Source: Myxococcales bacterium
GTDB lineage: Bacteria; Myxococcota; Myxococcia; Myxococcales; JAJYLH01
Length of the DNA stretch: 64,000 nt
Assembly: GCA_021787845.1 (NCBI GenBank)
Contig: JAJYLH010000008.1
Coordinates: forward strand, 62,001 to 126,000
Reading direction: 5' to 3'
Shown here piece by piece: positions 17,817-46,290 of this stretch. The notes beneath the pieces were generated by a model. That model had not been told where the DNA came from and did not search any database. It was given only the letters and a program-made list of their open reading frames with translations. Within the stretch, counting starts at the first letter, position 1; each line of letters opens with the position of its first letter. A program made the position numbers and the translations under genes.

Positions 17817-18125
17817 GGTGCTGGAAATAGATGACCGGACCGATGTTCGGGAGTTCTTCTCGTTCCTACTCATCCTGAGCGCGAGTCGTGGGGCGAGGGA
17901 GGAGCGCGCCAGTGCCCCAATCGCCCGTCCTTCAACTGGCGCCCAGCGTGGGCGGGCGCCCGCAACGGAAGCTCGATCTTGGAGATGATCGGGATAGTGG
18001 CACGTGCGAGGACGCCCGTGCCACTGAGTCCTGCTGCGTGGGATCGAGGATTTGCGTGCGGCGCAAAGATTTCCTGGCCTGATAGATCAGGACGAACGGC
18101 CGGAAACTCGAGCGAGGTGTGGTCA
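17817..18125. repeat. Composite dispersed repeat, copy B
   Basis: Related to copy A (3420-3760), with the left block in the same orientation and the right blocks inverted. Its right end (TCAGGACGAACGGCCGGAAA at 18089 onward, then CGAGCGAGGTGTGGTCA) also matches, inverted, the sequence at about 21220-21270. It is therefore at least a three-copy family in this window. Confidence 0.6.
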
Positions 18126-18241
18126 CCCCGATAAGAATGCCGGGTCAGATTATCCGTCCTGGGCGCTCCCCGGCGGCTGGGAGAAGCGAATACTTGATCT
18201 CGATTGCCGGGCTGCCTACCGTCCGGCGCCCGAGGGTGAGG

Positions 18242-19003
18242 ATGGCGGAGACAGCAGGTCTACGCAAGCGGTCCCGGAAGGCGGCGGCGGAGCCGAGACC
18301 AAGAGAGGCGCGCGCGGCGGTCACACCGGGGCCGGGACCAAAGCCTCGGGGCCGGCCGCGGCAAGAAATCGTGCCCGCGCTCGCCAGGGCCATCGAGACC
18401 GCCACCGACCTGCTCGCATCCGCCGGCGCCGAGGACGCCCTCACACGCTACAAGGTGGCAAGAATCGTCGCGCACGTGAAAGGCGCTCCTGGTAGGTACG
18501 GGGAACGAGCGGTCGGCACGCTGGCGCGTTCGATCAAGATCGGCAAGAAGACGCTGTACCACTACGCGGAGGTGGTCGAGACCTGGGACCCGAGAGAGTT
18601 TCGCAAGCTCGCCTCCCGACGGGGCTCCGGCGGGCGCGCGCTGCCGTGGTCGATGTTTCTCGAGCTGGCCCTGATTCGGGACGGGCGCAAGCGTGCCGCG
18701 CTGATCGAAACGGCGTTCGCGAAGGACCTTTCTGTTCGCGCCATTCGAAAAATCGTTCCGGGGGGCGTCGAGGATCGGCCGGACGAATTCTTGGAATCGT
18801 TTCTTCGAAAGTCGGCTCGCTTCGCCTCGCTGGTGGAAGTGTTGCGCGATCGGCTCGTGAAGGGCGACGTGGAGTGGAACAGGGAGCTCCTGACGAGCTG
18901 CCGCGATTCGCTGGGCGACTTGTCGAAGAAGCTCCCGGTGGTCGTCGGCGCGCTCCGTCAGCTCAACGGCGGCAGCGCGGCAACGCGAGGAACCGGCGAG
19001 TGA
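18242..19003 (+). CDS. Unrecognised, possibly DNA-binding protein
   Basis: A soluble protein of 253 residues from the ATG at 18242 (the frame is open to 18119). The N terminus is basic, with an Arg/Pro-rich tail. The core (about 40-165) contains KVARIVAHVKGAPGRYGERA followed by KKTLYHYAEVVETW. That has the feel of the N-terminal helical part of DUF1016/YhcG-type proteins, or of a helix-turn-helix-like domain, but the match is by eye and weak. A second part, SVRAIRKIV and later ESFLRKSARF, is helical. No nuclease motif is seen. It is monocistronic and is followed 20 bp later by a 26-bp perfect palindrome that could be its terminator or operator. Confidence 0.65.
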   Translation: MAETAGLRKRSRKAAAEPRPREARAAVTPGPGPKPRGRPRQEIVPALARAIETATDLLASAGAEDALTRYKVARIVAHVKGAPGRYGERAVGTLARSIKIGKKTLYHYAEVVETWDPREFRKLASRRGSGGRALPWSMFLELALIRDGRKRAALIETAFAKDLSVRAIRKIVPGGVEDRPDEFLESFLRKSARFASLVEVLRDRLVKGDVEWNRELLTSCRDSLGDLSKKLPVVVGALRQLNGGSAATRGTGE

Positions 19004-19022: not shown

Positions 19023-19048
19023 GAAAAGTCTCGACGTCGAGACTTTTC
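19023..19048. terminator. 26-bp perfect palindrome, possible terminator or operator
   Basis: The half-site GAAAAGTCTCGAC is followed directly by its exact reverse complement, ending CTTTTC. As RNA it would fold into a stable stem with a short loop and a small U-rich 3' arm, consistent with a terminator for the gene ending at 19003. The perfect dyad with no spacer is equally consistent with a dimeric protein-binding site. Confidence 0.55.
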
Positions 19049-19281
19049 GTTTCCACGTTTAGACCAAACGGCGGCGTCTGTGGTGCGGCTCGGCCGAAGG
19101 TCGTGGACCTGGAGCCACCCGATGAGCGTGTTTGCCTTTGGGGGCGGACAAAGAACGGTCTCCGACAGGTCGGTCGACCCCACCGTCGTCTTTCGCGGCT
19201 GGGCTCGTGCGTCGACGGGGCTCCTGCCCAGCACGGACGGAGGCTCGAGCGGCTGGCGCGGGAATCCGGGGTCGCCGCCGC

Positions 19282-19311
19282 TTGACAGGCCGCTGCCGGC
19301 CGGCGTAACGT
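19282..19311 (+). promoter_or_regulatory. Predicted sigma-70-type promoter of the proline-rich micro-gene
   Basis: A perfect -35 box TTGACA (19282-19287) is followed after 18 bp by TAACGT (19306-19311), a -10 with three or four of six consensus bases. A strong Shine-Dalgarno AAGGAGG (19326-19332) follows. A perfect TTGACA is notable in such GC-rich DNA. Confidence 0.5.
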
Positions 19312-19337
19312 CGCCGCCATCTTTCAAGGAGGGTCCC

Positions 19338-19424
19338 GTGCTCAACTGGCGTCCGAACCCGAAACCACGACCGAGACCGACTCCGAAGCCGCCGCCTTCT
19401 CCGAGGCCCAAGCCGGCGGTGTAG
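19338..19424 (+). CDS. 28-residue proline-rich cationic micro-protein
   Basis: A GTG start lies five bases after AAGGAGG, and the frame ends at TAG 19422-19424. The peptide begins Met-Leu-Asn-Trp and then has eleven consecutive X-Pro dipeptides, with X = R,N,K,R,R,T,K,P,S,R,K, ending Ala-Val. That is 12 prolines, 4 Arg and 3 Lys with no acidic residue (charge about +7). It should form a polyproline-II helix. The spacing and composition recall proline-rich cationic peptides such as the Bac7/apidaecin type, but no relationship is claimed. It is convergent with the radical SAM gene ending at 19645, 220 bp away. Expression is unproven; promoter and ribosome site make it more credible than a random frame. 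Confidence 0.45.
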   Translation: MLNWRPNPKPRPRPTPKPPPSPRPKPAV

Positions 19425-19644: not shown

Positions 19645-21081
19645 CTAACGCAATCCTCCGAGAACGGAAGCGGCGACCGCGCTCAGGGCGTCGGCGAAGT
19701 CTCGGGCGGTCAGGCTGCGTATCCGGAGGAGCTGCCGGGCGATGATCCTCGGACGAAGGTAGAACGACAGATGGGCCTTTCGCTGGAAGGCCACGATCGT
19801 CCGGTCATCCAGTCCGTCGGGGAGGTAGACGGGCGGCATTTGGTGCGTCGGGTAGCTCGTGTACCGGCGCCAGTTGTCCGGTTGCCTGAGGCGGCCGGAC
19901 GCCAAGAGGTCGTCGTGAAGCGGCGTCCCCGGGTAGGGGACGAAGACCGTGTACTTCGCGAAGTCGAGGTCCAGCTCCTTCGCGTAGTCGATGCTGCGTT
20001 GCATCGACTCGCGGGTCGCGCCGGGAACGCCGAGCATGAAGAAGCCCACCACCTGCACCCCGGCTTTCCGGCAGGCTTCCACGGCTTTCATTCCGGCGTC
20101 GACGCTCGCCCCTTTCCTCAGGCGCGAGAGCTCCTCCGGGTCGGCCACTTCGAAGCCGAACATCACCCGGCGCAGCCCCGACTCGCGCAGGGCCTGCATC
20201 AGCTCCAGGTCGACGAGGTCGGTCCTGGTCTCCGTGATCCAGACCTGGCGCCGGTGCAGCCCTCGACGGACGAGCTCCGCGGCGTAGGCGAGGCCTTCCC
20301 TTTTTGTCAGAGGGAAAATCGGGTCGACGAACGACGGCTGCACCCAGCCGTAACGGCTGTGCATCGCCTCGACCTCGTCCGCGATGTTGGCGACGCTCCG
20401 GCACCGGCGGACTCTCCCCATCACTCGCAGGGAGCAGTAGGTGCAGCCGAAGGGACAGCCGCGGGAGCCGAGGACGAGAAACCCGGGGTCGCGGACCCGG
20501 GCGAAGCTCAGAATCCGGTAGCGGCTCATGGGGAAGAGGTGCCAGGCGGGAAAGGGCAGCGAGTCCAGGTTCTCGACGTAAGGACGCGGCGCGGTCGCCA
20601 CCACCCGCTCGCCGTCGAGAAAAGAGATTCCCAGGACCCGGGAAAGGTCGACAGACGGCCTCGACAGCTCCCGGGCGAGCTCGACCAGGGTGACCTCGCC
20701 CTCCCCGTGGACGACGACGTCCGCCTGGCGAGAGCGGAGCAGCTCCTCGTGGTAGAGCCCGGCGTGGATGTTGCCGGCGACGATGTGGGCCTCGGGCGCC
20801 CCGGCCCGGATGGCGGCGACGACTCGGGGCGCCTCGGACATCACGGAGGTGATGAGGGAGAGGCCGACGATGGTCGGAGCGGCCTGCCGGACCGCCGCCT
20901 CGAGTCGGGAGGCGTCCCCGCCCGCGAGGGCGTCGTCGTAGACCTGGACGTCGATCCCCGCCGCCTCGAGGGCCGCCGCCAGGATGGCGAGGGTGATCGG
21001 AGGCATCTGGGCGAACACTTTCCCGTAGTACCCGCCGAGGTGATCGGGCGACCGGTAGATATTGACGAGCAGCACCTTCAT
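19645..21081 (-). CDS. B12-binding domain radical SAM protein 1
   Basis: A 478-residue member of the B12-binding radical SAM superfamily (methyltransferases, ring-forming enzymes and others). The N-terminal Rossmann-like cobalamin domain (1-180) has VHGEGEVTLVELAREL, the GEGE motif of this family. The radical SAM domain carries the [4Fe-4S]-binding Cys-x3-Cys-x2-Cys in RGCPFGCTYCS (about 206-213), followed by FVDPIFPL and FGFEVADPEEL blocks. No classical B12 lower-ligand DxHxxG motif is apparent. The ATG at 21081 gives the conserved start MKVLLVN. The substrate is unknown. It ends convergent with the proline-rich micro-gene and starts beside repeat-rich DNA. Confidence 0.9.
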   Translation of the reverse strand: MKVLLVNIYRSPDHLGGYYGKVFAQMPPITLAILAAALEAAGIDVQVYDDALAGGDASRLEAAVRQAAPTIVGLSLITSVMSEAPRVVAAIRAGAPEAHIVAGNIHAGLYHEELLRSRQADVVVHGEGEVTLVELARELSRPSVDLSRVLGISFLDGERVVATAPRPYVENLDSLPFPAWHLFPMSRYRILSFARVRDPGFLVLGSRGCPFGCTYCSLRVMGRVRRCRSVANIADEVEAMHSRYGWVQPSFVDPIFPLTKREGLAYAAELVRRGLHRRQVWITETRTDLVDLELMQALRESGLRRVMFGFEVADPEELSRLRKGASVDAGMKAVEACRKAGVQVVGFFMLGVPGATRESMQRSIDYAKELDLDFAKYTVFVPYPGTPLHDDLLASGRLRQPDNWRRYTSYPTHQMPPVYLPDGLDDRTIVAFQRKAHLSFYLRPRIIARQLLRIRSLTARDFADALSAVAASVLGGLR

Positions 21082-21260
21082 GTAGCGGGTTCCCCTCTCT
21101 TCCTGCGGGCCACCCGGCCGATTCCCTCTGCCGGCGACGGCGGTCCCCATCCGCTCGTCGGGCCCACGCTAACAGGTTCTCTGCGGCAAGCGACGCGAGC
21201 CCGCCTTCTCGCGCGGACGGCTTTTCGGGATGACCGCACCTCGCTCGCGTTTCTGGCCGC

Positions 21261-21377
21261 TCGTCCTGAGCGGTCATCCTGAGCGGTCATCCTGAGCGGT
21301 CATCCTGAGCGGTCATCCTGAGCGGTCATCCTGAGCGGTCATCCTGAGCGGTCATCCTGAGCGGTCATCCTGAGCGC
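21261..21377. repeat. 13-bp tandem repeat, nine copies
   Basis: Nine head-to-tail units of tcatcctgagcgg; the first (21261) reads tcgtcctgagcgg and the last ends gc instead of gg. There are no spacers, so it is not CRISPR. The unit is one end of the short dispersed element, which continues intact after the array (cagtcgaaggacg). Confidence 0.9.
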
Positions 21378-21449: not shown

Positions 21450-21728
21450 CATTGCCCACCCGGCTTTGCGCGGTCAACCCGAGCATCCTCGCGCGGATGG
21501 CGTCCGCCATGGCCGCCGGAAGGTCGAGGCGCGCCGCCGTCGAAGCCCTCGGCGGGCTCGCCGCGGGCAGGAAGAGGACGGGGCGAGCGTTCGAAAGAGC
21601 GCCTCTTTCTCGCTCGGCGGCTTGATGGCATGGTACCCGCGCCGGAGCCGTTCCCGCGGGGACTGCTGGAGGGCTCCCCGACGGCTCGGGGCCGAAGGCC
21701 GCCACCGCCAGCTCGCGGAGACCATCTC

Positions 21729-23183
21729 ATGCACGTCGTCTTCGTCCAGGACAACGGCATCAACGAGTCGCTCGCGCTGACCGACGTCTCGGCCTGCGTC
21801 AAGGCGGCGGGCCACACGACGGCGCTGTTGCTCGAGCGGGAGGAGCGGGACCTGCGGCAAGCCATCGCTCGCGAGAATCCCGACCTCATCCTCATCACTT
21901 CCGCCATCCTCGCTCACCGATGGACCTTGCGGATGGTGGAGCGCGTTCGTCGCTGGTTTCCCGAGACCCCGCGGGTGCTTGCCGGCTCGCACCCGACGCT
22001 CTACCCGGACATCCTCGGCTTCGACGGCGTGGAGATGATCATCGTCGGCGAGGCGGAGCGCTCCCTCGTCGCGCTGGTGGACGCCTTGGCGGGCAAGACG
22101 CCGTTCGAACAGGTGCCGGGCCTCCATTTCAAGCGCGGCAAGTCCATCCACCGAAACCCTCTCGGGCCGCTGGTGAGCGACCTCGACGCCTTGCCGCTCC
22201 CGGACCGGGACCTCTATTTCGACCGCTACCCTTTCACCGGCCGCTTCCCCTGGAAGAAGTTCACGAGCGGGCGGGGCTGCGTGCACAACTGCTCGTTCTG
22301 CTACCAGCCGACCTATCGGGCGATGACCCGCGGCCACGGTCCCTACCTGCGCCGCAAGTCTCCAGAGCGGGTGGTGAGGGAGGTCAACGCGGTCGCCGCC
22401 CGGCACCGGGTGACCAACGTCCACTTCTCCGACGACCTTTTCGTGACCAACGCGGCGTGGGTGCGGGACTTCGCGGAGATCTATCCCCGGCGGGTCGGCA
22501 TCCCTTTCTCGCTCAACACCTCGGCGGAGCTCGTGACCGAGGAGGCGGTGCGGCTACTCGCCGGCGCCGGCTGCCGGGCGATCGCGATGGGCGTGGAGAC
22601 CTCCGACGAGAAGCTGCGCCGGTCGATTCTGGCCAAGGAGGTGTCTACCGATGCCATCCGCAAGGCCGCTCGGCTCATCCGTGACCACGGCATCAAGCTC
22701 GTCACCTTCAACATGGTGGGAGCGCCGGGCGAGACGCCGGCGGATGTGCTCGAGACCATTCGCTTCAACGCCGAGCTGGGTACCGACCTCCCCCGGGTTT
22801 CCATCTGCTTCCCGCTCCCGGGAACGCCGATTGCGAAAGAGCCGCTCGCCGGTCGCGAGGGCACGCGGCCGGACGTCTACGAGTTGCCGGACTTGGAGGA
22901 CGCCCGGTTCGACGAGGTGTTCTTCGCGAGCGCCAAGCCCCACGAGGCGGAGCTCATCAACCTCTTCCACCTCTTCACCCTGGGCGTTTCCCATCCACGG
23001 CTGATCCCGCTCATCCGCCGCCTCGCGCGCCTTCCGAAGGGGCGGCTCTACGCCCTCTCGAGCGTCCATCGGATGCTCGAGGAACGCTCCGTCTACGGCC
23101 TGTCGCTCCGGGAGGGCCTCGACTACTTCTGGCATGTCGGCACGCCCGACCGCCGGACGACCAACTTCGTGAGCCTCGTCTGA
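21729..23183 (+). CDS. B12-binding domain radical SAM protein 2
   Basis: A 484-residue B12-type radical SAM protein. The N-terminal cobalamin-like domain (1-165) has MIIVGEAERSLVALV; the cluster motif is in RGCVHNCSFCYQP (Cys184, 188, 191). HFSDDLFVTN, MGVETSDEKLRRSI and FPLPGTP follow, as in the superfamily. The ATG at 21729 matches the usual MHVVFVQ-like start; the frame is open upstream but repeat-derived. The C-terminal 110 residues (from YELPDLEDARF) are partly duplicated 1.5 kb downstream as a decayed fragment (24402-24727), flanking the SGNH gene. The substrate is unknown. Confidence 0.9.
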   Translation: MHVVFVQDNGINESLALTDVSACVKAAGHTTALLLEREERDLRQAIARENPDLILITSAILAHRWTLRMVERVRRWFPETPRVLAGSHPTLYPDILGFDGVEMIIVGEAERSLVALVDALAGKTPFEQVPGLHFKRGKSIHRNPLGPLVSDLDALPLPDRDLYFDRYPFTGRFPWKKFTSGRGCVHNCSFCYQPTYRAMTRGHGPYLRRKSPERVVREVNAVAARHRVTNVHFSDDLFVTNAAWVRDFAEIYPRRVGIPFSLNTSAELVTEEAVRLLAGAGCRAIAMGVETSDEKLRRSILAKEVSTDAIRKAARLIRDHGIKLVTFNMVGAPGETPADVLETIRFNAELGTDLPRVSICFPLPGTPIAKEPLAGREGTRPDVYELPDLEDARFDEVFFASAKPHEAELINLFHLFTLGVSHPRLIPLIRRLARLPKGRLYALSSVHRMLEERSVYGLSLREGLDYFWHVGTPDRRTTNFVSLV

Positions 23184-25177: not shown

Positions 25178-26185
25178 TCAAGATCGCCGGAGGTCAAGGT
25201 GAGCGAGGGCGCCAGACAGCGTCGGCATCAAGCAAGAAATGAAAGTCTTCTCGTGCACCAGCGCCTTGACTGCGATGGCGGCCCGCGGGTACGGAGGGAA
25301 TCCACACCCCTCGCAGAGTGGCGCCAATGGCTCGCCTGCCAGCGCACGTGCCCGGCGCGCACGCAGGACCGGACCGTTCCACAGCGTTTCGACCGATTCT
25401 TCCCGCAGGTCGCCATCCGAGAGGCCTTCGTCGAAGGTCCACAAGTGGTATGGGCACGTCGTCGCATGGCCATCCCAGTAGACATAGAGCTTGCGCCACA
25501 GATAGAAGTGGGTGTGCGCGCTGGCACAGGTGGCGACCAACGAGCCGCTTGCCAGGCTCGGATCACGTGACACGTCGATGAAACGCTCAAACCGTACGCC
25601 ATCGATAGGGAGGGTCCGGGCGAAGGCGACGAAGGAACCGAAGTGGGACTTGAGCTGGTCTGTCAAGACGGCAGAAAGATGCACGACCGTAGGGGCATGG
25701 CGCGTCCGGACGACCTCCGCCAAGTAATGGAGATTCTCGATCACGAGCTCGAATTGACCCCCTCTTCGCAGGTCCCGGTAGCGCACCGGGTCGTCGGTGT
25801 CGAGTGACACGATCATGTGCGATAGGCCGGCAGCCACGAGCAGCTCCGAGGTCCTGCGGTCCAGCCTGGTGCCGTTGGTCGTAATCGACGACGCGATACC
25901 GAGGCCGGCGAGCGTGGCGACCATGCGGTCGATGGCTGGGTGCAGCAGCGGTTCCCCGTACGTGTACAGGTTCACCAGCTCGGTCCCTCCGGCCAGCCCC
26001 GTCGCGATGTGGTGAAAGAGTTCCAGGCCCATCTCGCCGACCGGGCGGTCCATCCGGGTGCGCGGGCATGACGCGCAAGACAGGTTGCACCGATTCGTCG
26101 GTTCGAGATACACCTCGGCGGGTCTCGACGCCGACCGCTCGGAGCGAACCAGGTAGCGCAGGGCGGACTCCAGGTGAGTCGTCAC
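25178..26185 (-). CDS. Radical SAM protein with SPASM-like C-terminal domain
   Basis: A 335-residue radical SAM enzyme of the short PqqE/MoaA-like type. The cluster motif CNLSCASC (Cys33, 37, 40) lies early in EPTNRCNLSCASCPR. YTYGEPLLHP and SSITTNGTRLD are classical family blocks. The C-terminal third has a Cys-bearing segment (CASAHTHFYLWRKLYVYWDG, then TTCPYHLW and LCEGCGFPP), a SPASM/twitch-type auxiliary cluster domain used in peptide and glycan maturases. It starts at a GTG (26185) with GGAAAAG upstream. No obvious precursor peptide is adjacent. It probably modifies a product of this locus; whether peptide or sugar is unknown. Confidence 0.88.
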   Translation of the reverse strand: MTTHLESALRYLVRSERSASRPAEVYLEPTNRCNLSCASCPRTRMDRPVGEMGLELFHHIATGLAGGTELVNLYTYGEPLLHPAIDRMVATLAGLGIASSITTNGTRLDRRTSELLVAAGLSHMIVSLDTDDPVRYRDLRRGGQFELVIENLHYLAEVVRTRHAPTVVHLSAVLTDQLKSHFGSFVAFARTLPIDGVRFERFIDVSRDPSLASGSLVATCASAHTHFYLWRKLYVYWDGHATTCPYHLWTFDEGLSDGDLREESVETLWNGPVLRARRARALAGEPLAPLCEGCGFPPYPRAAIAVKALVHEKTFISCLMPTLSGALAHLDLRRS

Positions 26186-28232: not shown

Positions 28233-29765
28233 TCATCCATCGTACCACGCGGGCCGGACCAGGCGGGTGTAGTTGTCGTGGCGGAAAGGGTTCAAGCGCT
28301 GTCGGAGGGAGTCGATGAACACCCGGGCGCTGACCAGGGTGAACCAGGAGTACATGTTCCGTCGATAGGCGGTGCGGGAAAGCAGTCCCTTGACCAGCCA
28401 GGCTGGGCGGACGAACTCCCTCGCCATCTCGATCATGGCCAGGTCGATCTCGTCGCGGGACATGTGTTCTGACGCCATCACCGGCGTGGAGAGGTCGAAG
28501 TAGTCGAAGTCCTCGATCTCCAGCCAACCCTTGGCCTTGGCCTCGTTCCACAGGGCGGTGCCCGGGAAAGGCGTGGCCGGATGAAACGCCGGGTAGTCGG
28601 CGTCGATGCGCCTGGCGAACTCCAACTGCCGTCGCAGCGTGGCGGGCGTCTCGTGGCGCACCCCGACGATGAAGGTCGCCTGTCGAAAGACCTCCGGGTA
28701 CTTGCGCTTGAGGAGATCGAACGTCTGGACCGAGCGGCTGTTCGAGTAGAAGGGCTTGCCCCATCCCTCCAGGTCGTCGTCCTCGGCCCGCTCCACCCCG
28801 ATGCAGACATGGCGTAGACCGCTGCGGACCAATTTCTCGAACACGCCGTTCTTCTCATCGCGCAGCACCAGGTCCGCGCGCATGAACGCGAACCAGTTCA
28901 GCGGCCAGCCCTTGCGCAGGAGAGCCGTCGCGAATTCGTCGTTCCACTTGGAGTTGATGTTGAAGGCCGGGTCGACGAACACCAGACACCGCTGGCCGTG
29001 TTTCTTGTAGAGGACCTCGATTTCGGCGACGGTCCGTTCCACCGATTTCGTCCGCCACCGCGCCGAGAGCGTCTCGCACCCGTCGGGGCCCTGCTTGCGG
29101 TCGGCCATCTGGGTCCACCACACGCAGAACGAGCACTGCGCCGCGCATCCCCGGCTGTGATGAATGGTAGCTCCCCCGGGGCTGAAAAGAAGCTTCGCCT
29201 GGCCGTACTTCGACATCGGCATCAGGTCGTAGGCCGGCATCGGCAGGGAGTCGAGGTCGGCGATCAGCGCCCGGGGTTTGGTTGTCTCCACCTTCCCGTC
29301 TCGAAGAAATGAGACCCCATCGACCTGCCGGGCCGCGGCGGGGTCGCCGTCGCGTAGCGTCCGCACCAACTCGAGCAAGGTGATTTCGCCCTCGCCCCGA
29401 ACGATGAAGTCGATGGGGTGGCGTGGCAGGTACAGCTCCCCGAGGTTCGTGAAGTGGGCACCCCCGAGCACGGTGACGATGTCCGGGTCGATTCGCTTGA
29501 CCAGCTCCACGAGCTTGAGAACCTCGCCCGCGTAGAGCGCGTGGTTCTCACCCGCGCCGACGACGTCCGGGCGGAAAGCGCGAATCCGCGCTTCGAGCGA
29601 CCTCCATCCGACCTTCTCGGGCATGCAATCCAGAACCTGGACCTCGATTCCGTCCTCGCGCAGGACGGCGGCCAGGCTGGGTAACGACTGGGGAAGAAGA
29701 TAGTTGTCCTCCTCATTCATGTAAGGCCAGAGGAGCCGTGGAGGCGAAACCAGTAGGACCTTCAT
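28233..29765 (-). CDS. B12-binding domain radical SAM protein 3
   Basis: A 510-residue B12-type radical SAM protein. MKVLLVSPPRLLWPY opens a cobalamin-binding-like domain (1-190) with VRGEGEITLLELVRTL. The cluster motif lies in RGCAAQCSFCVWW (about 203-211). Later blocks FVDPAFNIN, CIGVERAEDDDLEGW and FPGTALW fit the superfamily. The sequence between the cluster and FVDPAF is somewhat longer than in the paralogues here. Its product and substrate are unknown; it sits at the head of a minus-strand series with the propeller-like membrane protein and the SPASM enzyme. Confidence 0.9.
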   Translation of the reverse strand: MKVLLVSPPRLLWPYMNEEDNYLLPQSLPSLAAVLREDGIEVQVLDCMPEKVGWRSLEARIRAFRPDVVGAGENHALYAGEVLKLVELVKRIDPDIVTVLGGAHFTNLGELYLPRHPIDFIVRGEGEITLLELVRTLRDGDPAAARQVDGVSFLRDGKVETTKPRALIADLDSLPMPAYDLMPMSKYGQAKLLFSPGGATIHHSRGCAAQCSFCVWWTQMADRKQGPDGCETLSARWRTKSVERTVAEIEVLYKKHGQRCLVFVDPAFNINSKWNDEFATALLRKGWPLNWFAFMRADLVLRDEKNGVFEKLVRSGLRHVCIGVERAEDDDLEGWGKPFYSNSRSVQTFDLLKRKYPEVFRQATFIVGVRHETPATLRRQLEFARRIDADYPAFHPATPFPGTALWNEAKAKGWLEIEDFDYFDLSTPVMASEHMSRDEIDLAMIEMAREFVRPAWLVKGLLSRTAYRRNMYSWFTLVSARVFIDSLRQRLNPFRHDNYTRLVRPAWYDG

Positions 29766-29927: not shown

Positions 29928-31244
29928 CTACTCGTCCGTGGTCGAGGTCCCGGAGGTTTCGTCGAGCGCGTCCGCGTCCGAGGGTTCCGCGCCGATCAAA
30001 GCGTCGAGCGAACCCTTCACGTCCCAGCGAAAGACATCCCCGCTCACCAGGCCATCGAGCGTTTCTCCAGTTTGCCGCGCCATCCGGCCGCGGGCTTTTT
30101 CCTCCACCCGCAACGCCTTTTCCGCGGCGTGGTCACAGTACTTGCAATCGGCGCAGGACCGTTCGAAGCAGTCATTTCGCACGAAGTAGTCGAGAAAGCC
30201 GTCGAGCTTTCGGTTGTCCAGATAGAAGCCATCCGTCTTGGCGATCTTCGAGGCCGAACGGCGGAGCTTGACCACGTTCACGAGCCTCGGCCTCAGGTAG
30301 TAGCGCACCTGCCTCCAGAGCGCCTGGTATCCCCAGGCGCCGACGGTCCGGTTCGCCGGGAAGCCGAGCAGCTCGAAAAGGTTCCCGTCGAAGCGCCGTT
30401 GCCGGTAGGCGTCGACGATCTGTCCGATCTGCGGAGTCACCATGATCCGATTGACCAGCTTCAGCCGGTCGATGCCCAGGTCTTCGTAGGCGCCCTGGTC
30501 CTCCGGCCGAATCCAGGCGGCGCGGAGGAAGTTCGCCGGGGTTCGCAACGCGTCGTTCAAACAGTGCAGACGACAGTAGTCGAGCACGAAGCCGTGGAGC
30601 GGGTGTCCCTCCTGGGAGGCGTGCCCTTCGATGATCCCATGGTAGTGATCGTACGGACACTGGTGGACGCAGAGCAGGTTCCCAATCACCTGGAGCTCGA
30701 TGTCCACCGCGCGTCGAATCGCCGCCATCGTCTTGAAGCTCCGGCCCACCCCGGTGACCGAGAGCGTGATGCAGTCGGCGCCCAAGTCCTGCCAACGTCT
30801 CGCGCGCTGGGGGTTGGCCACGCCGGCAAAGGTCGAGACCGACACCTCCAAGCGGGGATGATGGCGCTTGACGAGCTCCAAGAGGTAGGGGATGGTGACC
30901 GTCACCTCGTCAGCGCCGGCCTGATCGATCCACTCGAGCAGACTGCGCAGCTTGCGCTGGCCGGCCCGGCTGAACTCCTGGTTGTTGAGGCTGGGGGAGT
31001 TGAGCACGTAGTTGAAACGAAGCCCGGCCCGATGGCACTCGGCGATGTGGGCCTCAGCCCGCTTGCGGCTGACCGACGGAAGCAGCACCGGCGAGCGGCC
31101 TCCTCCGACGAAATCCACCGGCAGTCGGGCATAGATGCTGTGCGCCCGTGGTCCTTTCACCCGCTCCACCAGATCCGGCTGAAAATTCGAGGGGATGACG
31201 AGCTTCATGGGCGAGCGCTCTCTCGATGCGGGTGTCCGACTCAT
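29928..31244 (-). CDS. Peptidase U32-family-like protein
   Basis: A 438-residue protein related to the U32 family (TrhP/RlhA/UbiU-type, mostly O2-independent hydroxylases using prephenate and an Fe-S cluster, not true peptidases). It shows the early GGGRSP and YVLNSPSLNN blocks and the central EVSVSTFAGV. Cys pairs occur in LLCVHQCPYDH and DYCRLHC, plus a C-terminal CFERSCADCKYC cluster that may bind further metal. The ATG at 31244 has AAGGAG six bases upstream; the conserved start MKLVIPSNF at 31208 is the alternative. It lies between a radical SAM gene and a methyltransferase. The substrate is unknown. Confidence 0.75.
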   Translation of the reverse strand: MSRTPASRERSPMKLVIPSNFQPDLVERVKGPRAHSIYARLPVDFVGGGRSPVLLPSVSRKRAEAHIAECHRAGLRFNYVLNSPSLNNQEFSRAGQRKLRSLLEWIDQAGADEVTVTIPYLLELVKRHHPRLEVSVSTFAGVANPQRARRWQDLGADCITLSVTGVGRSFKTMAAIRRAVDIELQVIGNLLCVHQCPYDHYHGIIEGHASQEGHPLHGFVLDYCRLHCLNDALRTPANFLRAAWIRPEDQGAYEDLGIDRLKLVNRIMVTPQIGQIVDAYRQRRFDGNLFELLGFPANRTVGAWGYQALWRQVRYYLRPRLVNVVKLRRSASKIAKTDGFYLDNRKLDGFLDYFVRNDCFERSCADCKYCDHAAEKALRVEEKARGRMARQTGETLDGLVSGDVFRWDVKGSLDALIGAEPSDADALDETSGTSTTDE

Positions 31245-31314
31245 GTGAAGCTCCTTCTCCCGACACCAGACTCCGCCGCGACGCCTCGCTGCCGTTCTGC
31301 TCGCCGTTGCGACG

Positions 31315-31869
31315 CTAGCACGAACCGCCCCCTCGACCAATCGCCGACCGGGCGCTCAACCGGTGGACCTGGAAGTTCACCGGAATCCGGAGCGGAAAGA
31401 ACCGGTGCGATAGCGGCATCCATGCGAGATGATCCTTTCGGCCGAGATGCTCGAAGCGCCCTTGAGAAAGGCGCTCGATCTCCAGGGAACCGAACGGAGA
31501 AACGTTGACGAAGAGGGCGCTGGCGATCCGGTCCCACCAACGCCGGGGCGTTCTCTCTCCCATCCCGACCAGCAGGAGATTTCCTCCCGGGCGGAGAACC
31601 CGGTGCACTTCCCGAAGATAGCGCTCCCGCCGCTTGCGTCCTTCGATGTGGTGGAGGCAGCCGCGGTCGGAAACCAAGTCGAAGGTCTTCTCGCGAAAAG
31701 GCAGGGCCAAGCTGTCGGCGGCGAGGTAGCCAATGATGCCGGCGCGCGAAAAACTCGCCGCCATCTGTGCTGCCTCCACCACGTAATCGACCCCAACGAA
31801 GTCCATCCCGGTCATGCCTTGGAGCCGCCGGGTGAAACCGCCCGCACCGCTTCCCAAGTCCAAAGCCAT
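31315..31869 (-). CDS. Class I SAM-dependent methyltransferase, N terminus frameshifted
   Basis: The open frame from ATG 31869 gives 184 residues beginning right at motif I (LDLGSGAGGF). VHRVLRPGGNLLLVG follows as in class I methyltransferases. The family normally has 40-50 residues before motif I. Upstream in the same frame, without a start codon, the DNA encodes WEELDYLPTIQLLLSDLLPP. Before that, in another frame, an ATG at 32017 opens MFFIGKGREPNWLDTLLPWL. Removing one base near 31950 would join them into a protein of about 230 residues. So this is either a single-base frameshift in the genome or a sequencing error. The acyltransferase gene lies upstream on the same strand. Confidence 0.75.
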   Translation of the reverse strand: MALDLGSGAGGFTRRLQGMTGMDFVGVDYVVEAAQMAASFSRAGIIGYLAADSLALPFREKTFDLVSDRGCLHHIEGRKRRERYLREVHRVLRPGGNLLLVGMGERTPRRWWDRIASALFVNVSPFGSLEIERLSQGRFEHLGRKDHLAWMPLSHRFFPLRIPVNFQVHRLSARSAIGRGGGSC

Positions 31870-43677: not shown

Positions 43678-46161
43678 TCAGCTCGCCCTGTCATCGTGTC
43701 GCGCCAGCCTCCAGAGTTGGCCGAGCCCGCCGTAACGCTCTTCGATCGCCCCGTGGGTACACACCTCATGGCAGCAGAAGCAGGAGACGCACTGGTCAGC
43801 GTCGATCCGAGGCGTCGGCTCCATCGCGATCGCGTCGACCGGACAGACCGACATGCACATCTCGCACTTCTGACACCGCTTGGGGTCGATGCGGGGCCGG
43901 AGCGTGAAGGTCCGGAAATGAAGCTGGGTGATGAACGTCCCGATGGCCGGGTGGAGCGGAGGCGGAAGGCGGAAGGGCACCCGGACAGCAGCGGGATCCT
44001 CGCCAACGACGAGGATGTCCTCGACCCTCCCCTCCCCGAGGCCGAGCCTTGCGGCCGCATCGAGCACCGGTTGGGGGCGACGGTCCATCCCGGAGACCCG
44101 TGCCGACATCCGGTCGAGCGCCACGAGGTCGGTCGACCCGAGGAGCAGCCCGAGCTGTCTGGGCGTCCCCTGGCCGGGACCGCTGCCCTCCATCCCCACG
44201 ATGCCATCGGAAATCGCGAAACCCAGGGGCAGAGCCCGGGCGATGGCGGCGACGACGCGGGCGAACTCCGCCGAGCTGAGGGTCCCGTGCAGCCGCCGCC
44301 GGTCAGAAGGGGCGACGCACCCGAAGAGGTTCTTCACCGCGCCGGTCCCCCCGGTGAAGACGTGGGTCTTGACCTTCGCCAGCGAGAGGACACGGTCGAC
44401 GGTCAGGGCGCGCTCGGAGATTCCCACCTCGAGCCCGGGGAGCACCTCCACCTTACGAAAGCCGTCCTGCGCGAGGTTCACCCACTCGACTCGTTCCTCC
44501 TCGCAGACCGAGAAGTAACCCGCCCGCCTCGAGGCGGTCACCGGACCGACGCCCTCTTGGTAGGCCGGCAGATCGCCGACCAGAGGCCGCGCGCCGGCAT
44601 CGCGCAGCGCCCGAACGCAAGCCCGAACCACCTCCGGATGGGTGACCACCGCCGATTCCGGCTTGGCGCTGCGCAACATGTTCGGCTTGACGAGAATGGT
44701 CTCCCCGGGACGTCCGAGCGCCTTCACGCCACCGAACGGGGCGAGCATCGCCTCCAGCGATCGCGAGACCTCCTCGGCCCGATAGCTCGAGCAACGCACG
44801 AGGCTCACCGTCGGCTCCGGGCGGTACCCGGCCATCGCCTCTTTCGATCGGAGGACTGCAGCGGCAGAGGCGGCCAGGCGCTTCACGCCGCCGAGGCTCC
44901 GTAGCTGCGTCGCCTGGCTCGCGATCACCTGTGGACGTAGGTAGAACCAGCGGGTGAGCTCGCGTTGTGCCCCAGGCAGGCTCGGGTCGGCCGCCGCGCG
45001 AGCCGCGCGCTCCAAGGCGTCTTCCGCCAGCCCCGGACGGCCTTGAAACACGTTGAACGACGCGAGGTCCGGGCGCAGCTCGCGAACCGCCGCCCGATAG
45101 CGCTCCTGGTGGCGACCGTCGTCCGCGGTCAGCCCGAGGACGAAGTGCGCCGAGGTCTTCAAGCCCGCCCGGCGGCAGCGAAGGAACGCCTCCCGCAGGA
45201 CGTGGAAGCTCAAGTTCTTCTTCTCGGCGCGCAGAACCTCGTCGCTCGGGGCCTCGACCCCGAGGTGGACCATGAAGCACCCGGAGCGCACGAGCAGCGA
45301 CACCATCTCGTCGTCGAGGAAATCGGCCCGGGTGAAAGCGTTCCACCGAAACGGCGCCCCGCGCGCGATGAGCCCTTCGCAGAAAGCGCGCGCCTGGGCC
45401 CGGTCGTAGCCGAAGCTCGCGTCGCGAACCCAGAGGTTATGCACCCCTCGAGCCGCCACCTGGTCCAACTCCTCGAAAACGGAGTCGAGGTCGCGAACCT
45501 GGACCGGAAACCGTTTGACGACGCAGAACCGGCACTGGAAGGGGCAACCCAGGCTCAGCATCGTGCTGTGGAAGGGGCGGCCATCGTAGAAGGGAAGCCG
45601 GTAGCGATCGGTGAGGAACTGGTCGAGGGCGGGAGTCGGATAGGAGAAGGTCCGCCCCCGCGGTCGCCCAGGGGACGGAGCGCCGCGAACCCGGACGTCG
45701 GCCGCCACCCGGCGGTGAAAGAAGTCGGTCAACGACGGGGAGGCGACGTAGTTGAGCACGCCATCGAGCATCGGCCAGGCTTCGAACGGATCGCCGCGGG
45801 GGAACTGAACGACGTCGCCGGCGCCGACGAAGACCGCCTCGGGCAGGCGCTCGCGCAGCCGCGCCAGGAAGGACCGGTCCTCCTCTTCGGAAGCGCTTCC
45901 CACGAGCGAGAAGACGAGCGCGGGCCGGACGGAGACCGCCATGCGCACAGCCTGCGCGAAGCCCCTCCGCTCGGCGACCGCGTCCAGGAGCCGCACCTCG
46001 AACTCTCTTGCCAGGAAACCGCTTTGAATCAGGAGGTCGTTCGGGTGCCAGACGTAGTCGGACTTGGAGATCTGGCTGTGGTAGTGGTCGCGGAAGACGA
46101 TCCGGCGCGACGGGGGATTGACGAGCAACGCGACCGGTTTCTGGGTGGCTCGCAGCTCCAT
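43678..46161 (-). CDS. Radical SAM - DUF362 - 2x[4Fe-4S] ferredoxin fusion
   Basis: An 827-residue three-part protein. Residues 1-190 are a diverged B12-like domain (starts ALLVNPPSRR; GEGE motif not evident). The radical SAM cluster motif is in LGCPFQCRFCVVKRF (about 203-211), with VRDASFGYD and VHLGVEAPSDEVL. Residues about 440-740 match DUF362: ILVKPNMLRSAKPES, VVTHPEVVRACVRALRDAGA, LAKVKTHVFTGGTGAVKNLFG, ISDGIVGMEGSGPGQG. The C terminus has two classical 4Fe-4S motifs, CQKCEMCMSVCPVDAI and CVSCFCCHEVCTHGAI. DUF362 often occurs with such ferredoxins; adding the radical SAM part is unusual. The ATG at 46161 has AGGAGG five bases upstream. It may supply its own electrons to the radical SAM site; the substrate is unknown. 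Confidence 0.9.
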   Translation of the reverse strand: MELRATQKPVALLVNPPSRRIVFRDHYHSQISKSDYVWHPNDLLIQSGFLAREFEVRLLDAVAERRGFAQAVRMAVSVRPALVFSLVGSASEEEDRSFLARLRERLPEAVFVGAGDVVQFPRGDPFEAWPMLDGVLNYVASPSLTDFFHRRVAADVRVRGAPSPGRPRGRTFSYPTPALDQFLTDRYRLPFYDGRPFHSTMLSLGCPFQCRFCVVKRFPVQVRDLDSVFEELDQVAARGVHNLWVRDASFGYDRAQARAFCEGLIARGAPFRWNAFTRADFLDDEMVSLLVRSGCFMVHLGVEAPSDEVLRAEKKNLSFHVLREAFLRCRRAGLKTSAHFVLGLTADDGRHQERYRAAVRELRPDLASFNVFQGRPGLAEDALERAARAAADPSLPGAQRELTRWFYLRPQVIASQATQLRSLGGVKRLAASAAAVLRSKEAMAGYRPEPTVSLVRCSSYRAEEVSRSLEAMLAPFGGVKALGRPGETILVKPNMLRSAKPESAVVTHPEVVRACVRALRDAGARPLVGDLPAYQEGVGPVTASRRAGYFSVCEEERVEWVNLAQDGFRKVEVLPGLEVGISERALTVDRVLSLAKVKTHVFTGGTGAVKNLFGCVAPSDRRRLHGTLSSAEFARVVAAIARALPLGFAISDGIVGMEGSGPGQGTPRQLGLLLGSTDLVALDRMSARVSGMDRRPQPVLDAAARLGLGEGRVEDILVVGEDPAAVRVPFRLPPPLHPAIGTFITQLHFRTFTLRPRIDPKRCQKCEMCMSVCPVDAIAMEPTPRIDADQCVSCFCCHEVCTHGAIEERYGGLGQLWRLARHDDRAS

Positions 46162-46290
46162 GGGCACCTCCTCCTCGAGCGCCCACGAGCTTGCCGATTC
46201 CAGAGGCTCCCTCGCAACTTCTTTTCGGGCGCTCGTTCGGCCGGACGCGTCGGGTCGCCAACCTCGTCAGCAGGCACGCCGCGCCTCGGA

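Follow-up and report, generated by a model that had tools for sequence, protein, structure and literature searches.

The locus considered here raises the question of what a gene of 28 codons, encoding a proline-rich cationic peptide, might do among genes for B12-binding radical SAM enzymes. The window, by which we mean the whole 64,000-nucleotide stretch of DNA analyzed, carries the gene and its signals as follows.

19282..19287, plus strand: −35 element TTGACA, read from the sequence; TTGAC is common upstream of family members.
19306..19311, plus strand: −10-like element TAACGT, separated from TTGACA by an 18-nt spacer; homologues have −10-like boxes at the same place.
19326..19332, plus strand: ribosome-binding site AAGGAGG, 5 nt before the GTG; GGAGG-like sites precede most homologues.
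19338..19424, plus strand: micro-gene of the WRP micropeptide family, read from the sequence, with a GTG start and a 28-aa product (MLNWRPNPKPRPRPTPKPPPSPRPKPAV); its homologues share a conserved frame, and the family is under purifying selection.

The gene runs from GTG at 19338-19340 to TAG at 19422-19424. A first-pass annotation of this DNA had described 28 codons, a perfect −35 box, a strong AAGGAGG at ideal spacing, and a product with eleven X-Pro dipeptides, seven positive charges (Lys or Arg), and no acidic residue (Asp or Glu), all of which the sequence bears out. The −10 box that it called plausible is present, but it is weak, matching TATAAT at three of six positions behind the 18-nt spacer, and for these two reasons a generic promoter scan calls nothing at the micro-gene. 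Because the open reading frame extends well upstream of the GTG (ORF 19080-19424), the assignment of the start relies on the ribosome site and on the homologues. The peptide has no signal sequence by inspection, and a pattern search finds a single copy of the gene in its own genome (6.24 Mb, 153 contigs). No tandem repeat is called at the micro-gene locus, which rules out a tandem-repeat artefact as its origin. Further upstream, the gene at 18119-19003 is closely followed, at 19023-19048, by a perfect 13-bp inverted repeat (GAAAAGTCTCGAC/GTCGAGACTTTTC), and a near-identical palindrome occurs on another contig (C79) of the same genome.

The peptide is a poor query. Alone, its 28 residues gave low-complexity matches only against 146 relatives, and a DNA search with the micro-gene region returned no syntenic relative in its own order. 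Matches to a GGAGG...X-Pro pattern were due to chance and lay inside ordinary genes, reversed-pattern controls for the degenerate X-Pro searches also gave matches, and WRPxPKP matches in the phylum of the window were chance as well, the window excepted. Look-alikes on three contigs (L095-L097) either came from a different protein or were embedded in other reading frames; on the first of these, from another genome of the same order, an unrelated 120-aa proline-rich ORF (MIVRPTPPFPRPKPGPRPTPP...) begins at about position 1012 behind AAGGAGG. Related contigs were located instead by means of a neighboring gene.

19645..21150, minus strand: enzyme A, a B12-binding radical SAM protein with Pfam B12-binding and Radical_SAM domains; convergent neighbor of the micro-gene.

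The first related contig (L080) carries MMHSWRPAPKPSPRPVPKPRP behind TTGACAGGCCG...TACTAT and TTGGAGG in a layout that matches the window, and a second related genome carries MKHWRPAPKPRPRPSPSPKP behind TTGACA...TATATT. Five genomes in the group of that first contig have A orthologues above 60% identity, each with a micro-gene on the same contig; the remaining three peptides are MTNWRPAPKPAPRPIPRPQPKP, MLISWRPAPKPTPRPAPGPYPKP, and MENWRPNPKPSPRPAPKPGMPKPFA. With the window included, all six genomes that hold such an orthologue have both the micro-gene and a second B12-binding radical SAM enzyme, B, on that contig. Relatives of the peptide beyond low-complexity noise were absent from NCBIfam, and none was found in the PDB or in plasmids; viral contigs did not yield the WRPSPRPKPGPK-type pattern, nor did the open-access literature yield the motif or a description of the family.

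The homologues follow the consensus M-x(1-4)-W-R-P-x-P-[K/R]-P..., and the commonest form is MNWRPSPRPKPGPK followed by one to three residues. In most genomes the core is about 12 residues long, and it is longer in the clade of the window. Two cases from the phylum of the window encode MNWRPNPRPKGIRPKK and MKGKSWRPAPRPKPRPRPTSK. In ten genomes three cores stand head to tail, as in MNWRPSPRPKPGPKSWRPSPRPKPGPKSWRPSPRPKPGPKS, with one residue between cores and with repeats that differ synonymously, in their choice of codons. The core WRPSPRPKPGPK is identical at the protein level in 21 genomes that spell it with 20 different DNA sequences (pS 0.42, pN 0). Across all first cores, a set that holds one spurious row (L285), pS is 0.62 and pN 0.20, and the relation is reversed in the other two frames. 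A strict search rule matched 34 times in 0.86 Mb of B loci and once in 0.93 Mb of DNA from other loci; ten Markov simulations of the same loci contained no such ORF.

The frame, start, and ribosome site, on whose conservation in relatives the first-pass annotation had staked its proposal, are all conserved among the homologues, which share the Met-x-W-R-P start and the position of TTGACA. Its claim that the gene has its own promoter is supported: TTGAC stands within 100 nt upstream in 38 of the 39 copies checked, against a background of 5.9% of windows, and −10 counterparts in the homologues read TACTAT, TACAAT, GACAAT, or TATATT. In one genome (G193) there is no TTGACA, and the ribosome site of the micro-gene is closely preceded, on L174 shortly before 13912, by a perfect inverted repeat, GGCTCAGAGGTTGTC/GACAACCTCTGAGCC. 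Judged from these comparisons, the micro-gene belongs to a family of tiny genes that has no name and is strongly conserved, and its translation, evident from the pattern of selection, is well supported.

Two further enzymes of the same kind are encoded in the window.

28233..29765, minus strand: enzyme B, a B12-binding radical SAM protein; the gene tied most tightly to the micro-gene family.
21630..23183, plus strand: enzyme C, a B12-binding radical SAM protein by Pfam, with 35-38% identical relatives in four of the five other close clusters (G147, G149, G150, and G193).

B12-binding and Radical_SAM domains are present in both A and B, and the CxxxCxxC motif can be seen in B, where it is invariant. 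In the five close clusters, A orthologues are 61-67% and B orthologues 61-74% identical to the window copies; B has 46 further relatives at 49-55% identity among 379 genomes, and two in the sample of its own phylum. The nearest NCBIfam model is BchE, with 186 bits for A and 177 bits for a B orthologue against a cut-off of 481. Scores for the RiPP-associated models are far below the curated cut-offs for A and for a B orthologue, the latter reaching 84 for ApyD (NF050148; cut-off 750) and 83 for TIGR03975 (cut-off 282). The nearest solved chains are AprD4-type (6fd2), CysS, and TokK, and a structure of B predicted from a three-row alignment is too poor to use (mean pLDDT 53).

The surroundings hold other features of note. 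Between A and C, at 21266-21376, lies a tandem array of a 13-nt unit (CTGAGCGGTCATC), part of which recurs near 17870. A Peptidase U32 family gene (29928-31340, minus strand) sits directly upstream of B, and no counterpart came up in the comparison with the other close clusters. A Radical SAM/SPASM protein is encoded at 25178-26185 (minus strand); its nearest model is TIGR04317, a tungsten-enzyme maturase, far below cut-off. At 43678-46167 (minus strand) an 829-aa fusion of Radical_SAM, DUF362, and 4Fe-4S domains is 58% identical to the product of a gene between the micro-gene and B in G148.

A scan of the DNA around 54 B loci, drawn from two of the phylum-level groups sampled by the search tool, found a linked micro-gene at 40. 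The other 14, some of them on short contigs, include one clade of four. Usually the micro-gene stands directly before B, or before a class I SAM methyltransferase that many loci have in between; micro-methyltransferase-B and micro-B-A are the common orders. In G147, G149, and G150 micro-B-A lie on one strand. In the reverse test, the peptide pattern alone, run on 379 genomes, returned five short, closed WRP micro-ORFs with the start next to the Trp, all near B. Nearly all other matches, apart from a few in G267, G227, and G495, were checked and discarded. The pattern needs six X-Pro units and misses the commonest short form, and the reverse test therefore covers the window-like type only. Searches with this long pattern extended to 574 genomes. 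These genomes carry many B12 radical SAM genes, which makes neighborhood weaker evidence than usual. Nevertheless, the linkage of the micro-gene to B is well supported by these locus comparisons, which establish that the peptide gene and the promoter element ahead of it are conserved and that the gene is linked to B.

Most B loci lie among housekeeping genes, unlike a typical natural-product cluster. The flanks recognized by eye (ruvABC, lpxC, yebC, enolase, and thiolase) indicate a chromosomal locus that was probably inherited vertically. In a tree of B, the window falls next to G193, micro-gene carriers occur on both sides of the midpoint root, the two carriers from the phylum of the window sit on long branches, and absences are scattered apart from the one clade of four.

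What, then, could the peptide do? Among the roles first suggested for it was that of a substrate of the radical SAM enzymes nearby, and this is the reading we favor, since the family adjoins one family of B12 radical SAM enzymes in dozens of genomes and the peptide is thus probably their raw material. We predict that the micro-gene is translated and probably well expressed, that its product is a leaderless substrate peptide, and that the W-R-P-x-P-[K/R]-P... core forms the functional unit of this peptide. B would modify this core, helped by A and in many genomes by the class I SAM methyltransferase, perhaps through C-methylation, to give a RiPP-like product; there is a proposal that B12 radical SAM enzymes methylate Val, Phe, and Pro in bottromycin (PMC5682303). 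The tandem copies, together with a strict core and variable flanks, suggest that the core is the unit recognized or released. Purifying selection, with pN of 0 and synonymous changes in 21 genomes, marks a gene-encoded precursor as expected of a RiPP. Few residues precede the WRP core, however, and in most members few follow it, so a separate leader or follower is lacking, and the missing leader counts against the peptide being a substrate. So do the 14 B loci that lack a linked copy, the housekeeping setting of most B loci, and the fact that neither a protease nor an exporter was seen among the conserved neighbors. Weighing these points, we put the probability of a leaderless RiPP-like substrate of B, with A as partner and often a methyltransferase, at roughly 0.6; the action of the enzymes on the peptide, the residues they alter, and the function of the product are inferred. 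A bolder extension, which we offer tentatively and at somewhat less than even odds, is that the family represents a new and ancient leaderless micro-RiPP class, with an invariant 12-residue WRPSPRPKPGPK-type core, single or triple, on which a dedicated B12 radical SAM enzyme and methyltransferase act, and with a product whose role in two phylum-level groups is conserved and physiological rather than antibiotic.

The same absence of a leader/core division fits the main rival, in which the peptide acts unmodified as a cationic, polyproline-II-like ligand of one of the enzymes in the system, serving as an activator, scaffold, or chaperone of B or A, with tandem copies providing multivalency. The strict conservation of the whole core, charges and Trp included, and an association with B that comes without obvious RiPP accessory genes could be explained in this way. 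Tandem cores one residue apart are, however, more typical of multi-core precursors, and no receptor domain was identified, so we consider an unmodified ligand unlikely.

We find it more doubtful still that the peptide is a bacterial proline-rich antimicrobial or signaling peptide resembling Bac7 or apidaecin that is exported after modification. In its favor, the composition and repeat pattern are like those of such peptides, whose insect members are encoded as pre-pro-polyproteins (PMC11549390). Against it, the sequence is invariant rather than diversifying, the gene context is one of housekeeping, and neither a signal peptide nor an exporter was seen in the conserved neighborhood.

A cis-acting leader peptide or attenuator, in which translation of the X-Pro run or stalling within it governs downstream methyltransferase or radical SAM genes, would account for the gene having its own promoter and for its place ahead of a co-oriented methyltransferase or B gene in about 30 loci, an arrangement that fits an operon or a leader. 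The ribosome-stalling leader of the first-pass annotation is nevertheless not supported: in seven loci (the window, L178, L297, L302, L307, L312, and L313) the next downstream gene is convergent rather than co-oriented. Nor is polyproline stalling a family feature, as the PPP run occurs in the window peptide only and is absent from the homologues. With selection acting on protein and not on nucleotide sequence, and with triple-core versions in existence, the convergent neighbors argue for a trans-acting peptide and leave a cis-acting leader very improbable. Finally, GC-rich DNA readily gives rise to X-Pro repeats, a tendency illustrated by the many chance pattern matches, but a chance ORF is already contradicted by homologues with conserved frame, start, promoter element, ribosome site, and linkage and a commonest form with pN of 0, and its likelihood is negligible.

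Genes of 15 to 40 residues are easily missed by routine gene callers, and this one is very strictly conserved all the same. The WRP peptide points to a likely substrate for a B12 radical SAM enzyme family without an assigned one; substrate assignment for such enzymes is a long-standing bottleneck, and the peptide-enzyme pair is concrete and testable. If confirmed as a substrate, the peptide would stand out among ribosomal precursors: unusually short, without a leader, multi-copy in some cases, and apparently physiological in its role.

Overall, the system combines features of several known ones. The BchE, HpnJ, and HpnR families of B12 radical SAM enzymes act on porphyrins or hopanoids, and we know of no micropeptide associated with them. 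Their NCBIfam models are the closest to A and B, but A and a B orthologue remain below the BchE cut-off. Bac7 and apidaecin share cationic X-Pro repeats, and some such peptides are encoded as tandem copies, but they are secreted animal peptides; the likeness of the WRP peptide to them is compositional only, with no exporter seen. As with mycofactocin and PQQ-type peptide-derived redox cofactors, a small conserved peptide gene is linked to a radical SAM enzyme (PMC3023750), whereas here the main enzyme is of the B12 type, cores can be in tandem, and the peptide resembles no NCBIfam entry beyond low-complexity noise. B12-dependent radical SAM RiPP systems (the bottromycin C-methyltransferases, PoyC, rSAM_ocin_1/TIGR03975, and ApyD/NF050148) differ in that their curated models exclude A and a B orthologue by a wide margin and in that the WRP peptide is leaderless, its core hardly varies, and neither a protease nor an exporter was seen among its conserved neighbors. 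They nonetheless share with this locus a short ribosomal peptide gene beside genes with B12-binding and Radical_SAM domains, and the methylation proposed for bottromycin includes proline (PMC5682303).
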